Part shown: positions 12,533-27,537 of the stretch, one piece after another
Numbering within the stretch: position 1 is the first letter of the stretch
Layout: every line of letters begins with the position of its first letter
From: an uncultured Akkermansia sp.
GTDB lineage: Bacteria; Verrucomicrobiota; Verrucomicrobiia; Verrucomicrobiales; Akkermansiaceae
Assembly (NCBI GenBank): GCA_947588645.1
Contig: CANPYO010000017.1
Span: forward strand, 1 to 33,937
Length of the DNA: 33,937 bases
Reading direction: 5' to 3'
The notes under the pieces: model-generated
What the model was told of the DNA's origin: nothing
What the model saw: only the letters and a program-made list of their open reading frames with translations
Database searches by the model: none
Position numbers and translations under genes: made by a program

Positions 12533-12718
12533 ACAACCGCATTTGAGAGAAGTCAATTAACAGAAAAATACTCTTATTGACTGATATCACTGTTTATACG
12601 TATCAAAAACCGTGATAACCAGTGGTCATCATGATGATGGCTCCAAAGGAATCTCAGCATACATCCATGATCTGAAAAAATCTGCGCAACGCGCACATTA
12701 TTAATAAATCGTACAAAA
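12533..12718 (+). mobile_element. MITE-like repeat REP-A, copy 2 (right end separated by D-type array)
   Basis: aaccgcatttgagagaagtcaat...attgactgatatcactgtttatacg...tctgcgcaacgcgcacattattaataaatcgta. Confidence 0.75.
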
Positions 12719-12888
12719 CTGCCGACGGTGTAAGGCAGATTGGACAAAAGCGCAGCTTTTGCCCCGCAGGGGCGAAAGCGACCGACGGCTGTAAGGTCGA
12801 TTAGCCAAAAGCACAGCTTTTGCCCCGGAGGGGTGAGGAGTCGTGAGGCGACTCCGAAGCAATAGGCAATGAGGTGCCTACGAGTCAA
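12712..12888 (+). repeat. Modular hairpin repeat array (D-type)
   Basis: AAAAGC-GCA-GCTTTT, AAAAGC-ACA-GCTTTT, GGAGTCG-TGAGG-CGACTCC, then GACTC...TAGGCA-atgagg-TGCCTA-cGAGTC. Confidence 0.85.
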
Positions 12889-12911
12889 CGTACATCGTAC
12901 CTCGTACATAG

Positions 12912-12940
12912 GCAAACGCATTTCCTAATGCGTTTGCCCT
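12912..12940. repeat. Terminal hairpin of REP-A
   Basis: GGCAAACGCATT-TCCT-AATGCGTTTGCC; similar hairpins near 1157, 21683, 26811 and 30938. Confidence 0.8.
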
Positions 12941-21911: not shown

Positions 21912-22149
21912 CCAGTTACCATATACAATGCACGACACGCGTGTCCCAATAAAATCTTCTCCGGGCTCATTCAACCCATTTCTTCGCGTGTGGGATGCGA
22001 GACACACCACTTTCTTTCGCGCAACACTCGCTAGCTTTGCAGTCGTACACCGTACTTCGTACATAGGCGCCGCCAGGCGCCACCGCCATCGTCTTCGAAA
22101 ATTCTGCTTTGCTTTTATTTCGCAGAAACGCGCGAAGCGTGCTAGCATT

Positions 22150-25068: not shown

Positions 25069-26199
25069 CTACCGTGTTCCTTCCGCCTGTCCGGAGGGGC
25101 AATAGACGCGTGGAACACGGGCGGAGATGGAGGTGATGACGTTGGAGGGGATCGTATGAGCGCGGGTAGTAAGCTCCTGCCAAGGGACGTTCGGTCCCAT
25201 CATTTCGGCTACATCGCCGGGCTTCACATCCTGCAGGTGGGTCACATCCACCATCACCTGATCCATCGTCACGCGTCCCAGTACCGGGCAGTAGGAGTTG
25301 TTGAGGTACACGCGTGCGCCTGTGTTGGAGAGGTAATGCAGATAACCGTCTCCGAAGCCGATGCCGATGGTGGCCACGCGCGTGGGCGCCGTGGTAATGT
25401 AAGTGTGGTTGTAGGACACACCATGGTTGTCCGGCAGTGTGCGCACGAGGGTGACGCGGCTGAAGAGGGTGAGGGTGTTGCGCAGCTCCTTGTTGAAGGG
25501 CGATGGCATGGGCGAATAGCCGTACAGGATGCGCCCCAGGCGCACCATATTTGTGCAGGGCACGTGGTAGTTGAACACGCCGGAGCTGCTGCACAAGTGA
25601 CGGTACTCAAAGGTTATGTCTTGTGAGAGTTCGCTCACTGCCTGCTCAAAGGCTGCAATTTGGCGATGGGTAAAGGAAATGTCCTCGCTGGCGGCGGAGA
25701 GATGGGAGTAGATGCCCTCGATATGCAGGTTCAGGAGCTGCTTCAATTTGTCAGCAAGGCCGTGGATGCTGTGCGGCAGCAGTCCTGCGCGCCCCATGCC
25801 GGTATCGATACTGATGTGCAGGTGCACTTTTTTGCCGTACAATTCGCCCAAGGAATTGAAATGCTCGGCTTCCTCGGGTGAAGAGAGGGCTGCACGCCAC
25901 CCATTCTGCACGATGGCCTCGCGTTCTTCCGGAAAACACGGACCCAGGATGAACGGACATATGTGCGCCCCGGTGTCCTGCACGCGCTGCGCTTCCGCAA
26001 TAGTGGCCACACCGAAGAAAGAGATGTCTTCCCCATCCAGCGCGCGCACGACTCCCTCCAGGCCGTGCCCATAGGCCTCTGCCTTGACAATCGCCATACG
26101 CCGATGATTCGGCAGCGCCTTCTGCACCACGCGCAAGTTGTGTTTCATGGCATCCGTATCAATCTCCGCCCATGCGCGGTATAGCGAACAATCGGTCAT
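25069..26199 (-). CDS. alr: Alanine racemase
   Basis: [35 protein letters not shown] (PLP-Lys region), [36 protein letters not shown] at 26199 chosen. Confidence 0.95.
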
Positions 26200-26205
26200 G
26201 CGCGT

Positions 26206-26234
26206 ATCATACGCCCTGCACATCGGAATGGCAA
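26206..26234 (-). promoter_or_regulatory. Putative alr promoter (leaderless)
   Basis: TTGCCA - 17 nt - TATGAT - 6 nt (acgcgc) - ATG. Confidence 0.65.
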
Positions 26235-26458
26235 CTTTTTTTGCGGTGCTCAAAATGCAAACATGACTTGCTGCCCACATCCGCCCCACGGCCCCATGCA
26301 ACCGTCTTGCGGCTGCTCATTTACGATTTCCGACTTGCAAAATTCGGCGAGAAAAGCTCGCGGGGAGGCAAAGCAGAGGCGGAGCGGAATTTGAAAACGG
26401 TGCGCGGGAATCGTTAGGAAGCGGCGGGGGCGGGGGCAGCGAAACGCCGCCTATGTAC

Positions 26459-26835: not shown

Positions 26836-26940
26836 CGGCCCCGTTTAGGGTGCTCGCGTCAGCGGGCAGTGAGGGCGGTTGGACAGCGCGAAGACGCTGC
26901 CCCGCAGGGGCTCACTGACAGGGTGGTGCCAGTGAGTCAA
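26836..26940 (+). repeat. D-type hairpin module, GC-rich variant copy b
   Basis: Near-identical to 26459-26575 with changes in hairpin loops. Confidence 0.85.
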
Positions 26941-26964
26941 AGCCCCCGAGGGCTCGGAGGGGGA

Positions 26965-27112
26965 TTGGACAAAAGCACAGCTTTTGCCCGAAGGGCGAAA
27001 GCGACCAACGGCCGTAAGGTCGATTAGCCAAAAGCGATAGCTTTTGCCCCGAAGGGGTAAGGAGTCGTGAGGCGACTCCGAAGCAAGCGCCGATGGGGCG
27101 GCGCTGAGTCAA
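26965..27112 (+). repeat. D-type modular hairpin array
   Basis: AAAAGC-ACA-GCTTTT, GCCC-GA-AGGGC, AAAAGC-GATA-GCTTTT, GGAGTCG-TGAGG-CGACTCC, GACTC...AGCGCC-gatggggc-GGCGCT-GAGTC. Confidence 0.85.
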
Positions 27113-27267
27113 GGTACGATGTACGATTTGAATGCTAGCGCGCCTACGGCGCGAGGAAGCAGGTGGTGTGTCTCGCATTCCACACGCGAAGAAATGGGTT
27201 GAATGAGCCTGGAGAAGACTTTATTGGGACACGTGTGTGAAACGCCAAACATTTTTTTAATTATCTC

Positions 27268-27296
27268 TTGACTATCGAGCATACATGTGCTAAAAA
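27268..27296 (+). promoter_or_regulatory. Putative promoter of structured RNA candidate
   Basis: TTGACT - 17 nt - TAAAAA with TGC extension; TSS expected at about 27300-27303. Confidence 0.55.
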
Positions 27297-27299
27297 GGG

Positions 27300-27415
27300 A
27301 CTCCTGCAAGGTCCCATAGGACCGTTAAATCTATGTGGGCTGGTCATTGAACCAAGCTCGTGGTGCGTTGCAGGCGCACTTAAAGGGGCAGCGATTTCGC
27401 TGCCCCTTCCTTTTT
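27300..27415 (+). ncRNA. Candidate novel structured small RNA with predicted pseudoknot and intrinsic terminator
   Basis: Promoter upstream; hairpin GGTCC-CATA-GGACC (27310-27323); stem 27337-27344/27351-27359 with bulged A; hairpin GTGCG-TTGCAGG-CGCAC (27363-27379) whose whole loop complements 5'-terminal CCTGCAA (27303-27309); strong terminator. Confidence 0.6.
27383..27415 (+). terminator. Intrinsic terminator of the ncRNA candidate
   Basis: AAGGGGCAGCG-ATTT-CGCTGCCCCTT followed by CCTTTTT. Confidence 0.9.
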
Positions 27416-27508
27416 GCATGGAAAGCGAGTTGCATGGGCTTGGAGAAGATTTTATTGGGACACGTGTGTTTTTAAATACAATTTGCCGAGGAATGGCGAT
27501 ATTTAGGA

Positions 27509-27537
27509 TTGACAAAGTAAATTCGGATACCTATAGT
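27509..27537 (+). promoter_or_regulatory. Putative promoter of Pro/Ala-rich lipoprotein gene
   Basis: TTGACA - 17 nt - TATAGT; leader about 18 nt. Confidence 0.65.

Follow-up and report, generated by a model that had tools for sequence, protein, structure and literature searches.

The gap between two genes of an uncultured Akkermansia raises the question of whether it holds an RNA gene of its own and, if so, of which kind. The window, that is, the whole stretch of 33,937 nucleotides of contig CANPYO010000017.1 that was analyzed, shows an intergenic gap with an alanine-racemase-like gene (25069-26301, reverse strand) on one side and a lipoprotein-like gene (from about 27563) on the other, both named from a reading of their translated open reading frames. 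An earlier note described in this gap an orphan RNA with its 5' end paired to a hairpin loop, which might be a new sRNA, a riboswitch-like element or a ribozyme. According to sequence comparison, the RNA gene is real and previously undescribed, and its fold is conserved. In our best reading, it is a member of a new family of sRNAs that is restricted to this lineage, and whose members are structured, probably act in trans and probably do so without Hfq.

Architecture of the RNA gene

The RNA unit is located at about 27268-27415 of the forward strand, and contains a promoter, a 77-nt core with three hairpins and a strong terminator. The sigma-70-type promoter (27268-27296), assigned by sequence and by conservation among homologues, shows the hexamers TTGACT (27268-27273) and TAAAAA (27291-27296), separated by the 17-nt spacer ATCGAGCATACATGTGC. 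An A/T-rich tract upstream of the -35 hexamer (27247-27263, same strand) is a possible UP element, and similarly placed A/T tracts are found 5' of most homologues, with the exceptions of G008 and G111b. The gene body (27301-27415), with a predicted start and a predicted transcript of about 115 nt, is delimited by the homologues, the covariance model and the fold, this strand folding 3.8 sd better than shuffled sequence (z of -3.8). Alignment of the copies places within it the P1 5' strand CCUGCAA (27303-27309), whose partner is the P4 loop, the P2 hairpin GGUCC-CAUA-GGACC (27310-27323), and the P4 hairpin GUGCG/CGCAC (27363-27379), whose 7-nt loop UUGCAGG is the P1 3' strand (27368-27374). The P3 hairpin (27337-27359), GGGCUGGU/ACCA(A)GCUC as RNA and GGGCTGGT/ACCA(A)GCTC as DNA, is marked by compensatory changes. 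The intrinsic terminator, GGGGCAGCG-AUUU-CGCUGCCCC followed by a U-rich tail (27383-27415), was read from the sequence and also recovered by a terminator scan. Promoter, CCUGCAA, P2, P3, P4 loop and terminator were each found where the earlier note had placed them. A conserved RNA is thus bounded by its own conserved promoter and an intrinsic terminator, as expected of a stand-alone intergenic sRNA gene.

Since the -10 hexamer TAAAAA lacks the last T of TATAAT, the promoter was not listed by a consensus scan, and its support is the conservation across homologues. The spacer is almost as conserved as the hexamers, and the promoter pattern, with two or fewer mismatches, matches only at RNA copies in the 77 genomes of the genus that were searched. 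The palindromic centre of the spacer (ACATGT, which in some copies reads CACATGTG) might serve as an operator, and the conservation of the spacer suggests that the sibling copies may be jointly switched by one regulator. The lipoprotein-like gene shows a near-perfect promoter, TTGACA-17-TATAGT (27509-27537), and its orthologues have similar upstream sequence; this promoter suggests that sigma-70 promoters of this group may be E. coli-like. A run of short and imperfect GC-rich repeats (AGCTTTTGCCCGAAGGGCGAAAG and its relatives) was also observed at 26888-27100 of the window, and peptide-like frames resembling them appear again near 39-305 and 12574-12921.

Copies, distribution and conservation

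BLAST detected a second copy within the same genome (G000:C99), with 84% identity, and further copies elsewhere in the genus. With a covariance model search, the total rose to 17 full-length copies, distributed over nine of the 77 genus genomes at one to four each; one additional copy runs off a contig end, and another is a truncated remnant. The window copy scores 116.8 bits against this model, which was built including the window sequence. The copies occupy several unrelated loci, and promoter, core and terminator travel together among homologues. The term orphan is contradicted by these numbers, and the BLASTN comparison with related genomes that the earlier note had proposed yielded homologues retaining body, promoter and terminator. 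Within the part that was read, two of the four copies in G111 do not differ, and this pair may represent an assembly duplicate. A search of the named genome collection yielded 14 stretches, each of them in an uncultured Akkermansia MAG whose isolate name starts with 'Lapin', the French word for rabbit; this name would place the carriers in the rabbit gut.

Outside the genus, no credible copy was found in 242 sampled genomes of the order, and no copy in a 390-genome sample across the phylum. Phage and plasmid collections contained no copy, and IMG/VR showed no match to the promoter pattern and a single match to the core pattern, which was judged to be chance on reading. Weak matches in two genus genomes, G106 (E 0.016) and G001 (E 0.083), were taken as chance and not counted as carriers, and the weak matches L071 and L072 in the order proved on reading to be merely terminator-like hairpins.

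Comparison of the window with its orthologue in G042 showed 93 and 86% identity for the flanking genes, and in the intergenic gap the main alignable piece, which spans positions -26 to +148 counted from the -35 hexamer, has 88% identity; apart from the promoter-to-terminator stretch, little of the orthologous intergenic DNA is conserved. The flanks are far less well kept than the promoter spacer and the stems, a difference that implies selection acting on the RNA, and by this comparison we consider that the sRNA gene is under selection. Linker lengths differ by single bases across copies, which speaks against a coding sequence. Some copies have decayed: one in G048 (L040, contig C24) has lost its -10 hexamer, and another in G111 (L070, contig C95), which adjoins a tyrosine-recombinase-like gene, retains nothing but the terminator and the 3' portion of P4. 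Furthermore, G046 shows the flanking genes without the RNA at the site of the window copy (locus A), and has a copy with 91% identity elsewhere. Because of these two decayed copies and the empty locus A in G046, single copies are considered dispensable.

Fold and pairing of the 5' end

RNAalifold analysis of 16 aligned cores gave a z-score of -6.0 in relation to column shuffles, with 0 of 500 equally good, and across 15 aligned copies (14 of them distinct) the proportion of cells that pair is 96.3%, compared with 37-44% when the partners are slid. P2 shows GGUC/GACC in all copies, with one U-G, and a variable loop. P3 and the terminator stem show A-U/G-C exchanges and two-sided changes; covariation is good in P3, whose loop is frequently C(UUCG)G in the homologues. 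The P4 stem is paired in all copies, and its sole variable pair is G-C/G-U. For P1 (CCUGCN/NGCAGG), five pairs are present in 16 of the 16 cores, with one C-G replaced by U-G in three, and its covariation is weak, the score being equalled by shuffles in 21 of 500 cases. P1 and P4 thus rest mainly on conservation. Overall, conservation lies in the stems and the P1/P4 module, and variation in the P2 loop and the linkers.

The 7-nt complementarity between CCUGCAA and UUGCAGG described in the earlier note is complete in the window, and of this complementarity, whose loss in homologues the note had named as evidence against its proposal, the CCUGC/GCAGG part is retained in every core; the sixth pair (GC, GU, AU or UA) is formed in 13 of the 16 cores and mismatched in the remaining three. 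An additional pairing between the CAUA loop of P2 and UAUG in the linker did not hold, as it is unconserved and forms in merely 63.6% of cells. When P1 is formed, six nucleotides of the P4 loop pair, which leaves one nucleotide free at the 5' edge of the loop and none at its 3' edge, and kissing loops allow such geometry. A pseudoknot with P1 and P4 formed simultaneously is therefore geometrically feasible and, from the aligned sequences, likely. The pseudoknot of the earlier note is plausible and both its strands are conserved, but covariation in the crossing helices is too thin to separate it from alternating folds.

Identity, rival explanations and related systems

No Rfam 15 family reached its gathering threshold, and relaxed thresholds likewise gave nothing, in keeping with a new sRNA; this proposal of the earlier note also agrees with the conserved stand-alone promoter-RNA-terminator unit and with a separate SRP RNA in the genome. 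The bacterial small SRP RNA (RF00169) is of similar length and was discarded as an identity, since the genome's own copy lies on another contig (C12:3913-4006) and the model gives no match in the window, where the lack of an SRP signature had already been noticed. A riboswitch or cis-acting leader requires the same downstream gene class at every copy, but downstream genes differ, and the terminator lies outside the folded core; the ribozyme proposal found no support. A type III toxin-antitoxin RNA, which calls for tandem pseudoknot repeats next to a toxin endoribonuclease gene, was also rejected, as the RNA shows no tandem repeats and no neighbour gene is common to all copies. No long antisense partner was found in its own genome, where, terminator palindrome aside, other matches are 14-19 nt long with E > 1. 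A single profile search for Hfq (PF17209) gave no match in the draft genome (95.9% complete), with controls matching; an Hfq-dependent sRNA, which requires Hfq in the genome, is consequently improbable, and Hfq-independent action is expected.

We lean, with slightly more confidence than doubt, towards a stand-alone sibling sRNA gene whose product has P2-P4 folded and its 5' end locked to the P4 loop, and acts in trans without Hfq. RNA polymerase would start just 5' of CCUGC and stop at the terminator, and the core of about 77 nt would fold into P2, P3 and P4. The 5' end would then pair with the P4 loop over 5-7 bp, a pairing backed by conservation, giving a compact, probably pseudoknotted molecule with a hidden 5' end, in which both helices presumably form at once. 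Because the stems and P1/P4 are conserved while the P2 loop and linkers vary, we infer an RNA that is structured and acts in trans, and not one that works as antisense through an exposed seed. It most likely would bind a protein, or its 5'-end/loop pair would open for a target RNA, in either case without Hfq. What the sequences show is a conserved promoter, fold and terminator; that the gene is transcribed, that its RNA acts in trans on a protein or another RNA, and that the copies are regulated jointly are inferred from them. The joint claim of a new pseudoknotted RNA class, with the 5' end locked in its own loop, a spreading promoter-RNA-terminator cassette, co-regulation by an operator in the spacer and independence of Hfq, seems improbable when taken as a whole.

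The same conserved strands might instead build a two-state switch that alternates between a nested junction of P1, P2 and P3, a three-way one closed by CCUGC/GCAGG, and a state with P4 formed and the 5' end free, a ligand, protein or target RNA choosing between them. In each of the copies examined, the nested P1 has the better predicted energy, with P4 no more than 1.3-4.6 kcal/mol behind, and the RNAalifold consensus of the 16 cores picks the nested form; however, P1 and P4 can coexist in the kissing-loop-like geometry and there is nothing downstream to control, the terminator being outside the core, and we regard the switch as possible but doubtful. A passenger cassette, spreading within the clade by dispersed-repeat recombination or mobile elements and with little function for the host, would explain the unrelated loci, the pseudogene remnants and the copies adjoining a tyrosine-recombinase-like gene (named from sequence). 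The window copy is flanked by two direct copies of a repeat end on the forward strand (27198-27238, 5' of the RNA gene, and 27429-27469, 3' of it; 41 nt, 90% identical, 231 apart), and this arrangement, together with the empty site in G046, suggests that copies move from site to site in this clade. Nevertheless, the dispersed repeat is absent from some RNA loci, the phage and plasmid collections hold no copy, and the spacer and stems are far better kept than the flanks, which makes a mere passenger rather unlikely. The repeat itself, with the 3' end GAATGAGCCCGGAGAAGATTTTATTGGGACACGTGTG, also occurs at 21935-21972, 25039, 15505 and 6533 of the window and in 13 of the 77 genus genomes, with 80 copies in this genome (three or fewer mismatches), 41 in G042 and 28 in G046; its right end seems fixed and its upstream part is variable.

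At other loci, a group II intron lies directly 3' of the RNA. By sequence similarity, ten copies have intron sequence after the terminator, in two of them just a 5'-truncated internal piece, and RF02001 and RF01998 match intron sequence in three of the loci scanned. That the sRNA is a part or regulator of this intron is nonetheless very improbable: this intron end is likewise found after many unrelated hairpins that resemble terminators, also in genomes without the RNA, and seven copies, including that of the window, have no intron directly 3'. The intron was thus rejected as functional partner and considered a passenger, and its choice of terminator sites gives some independent support that the sRNA terminator is a terminator. 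The intron is multicopy (L038:6826 onward; L039, L023, L041, L043, L073 and others) and lies directly after intrinsic terminators; its junction often resembles TTTTG followed by TACGTCAGGCATGACATG, although many matches are partial. Equally hard to credit is a leader or attenuator acting in cis on the lipoprotein-like gene, as its position upstream of that gene in the window would suggest, since the gene is served by a promoter of its own, which resembles sequence in relatives that lack the RNA at this locus, and other loci have different downstream genes.

The preferred reading, a stand-alone trans-acting sRNA, concerns a group in which structured sRNAs seem little studied: in the paper library searched, no paper was found uniting Akkermansia, small RNA and pseudoknot, or on a structured or characterised sRNA in Verrucomicrobiota. 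The 17 full-length copies and the covariance model make a clean family that yields precise predictions, and its carriers are related to a gut bacterium that attracts wide interest; a restricted, multicopy and partly decaying RNA family is useful for studying the origin and movement of sRNA genes. Among known RNAs, DapZ (RF02551) is the best sub-threshold Rfam match (26.6 bits, spanning the terminator), but its gathering score is 56 and a homologue reaches just 14.6. ToxI/CptI-type antitoxin RNAs are likewise short and pseudoknotted, as predicted here, whereas the present RNA is a single unit instead of tandem repeats and has no neighbour gene shared by all copies. Qrr and LhrC are multicopy sibling sRNAs. 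In contrast to them, this family shows no evident exposed conserved seed and no Hfq match, sequence relation to them being covered by the Rfam scan alone; like them, it comprises several similar intergenic sRNA genes per genome, with their own promoter and terminator.
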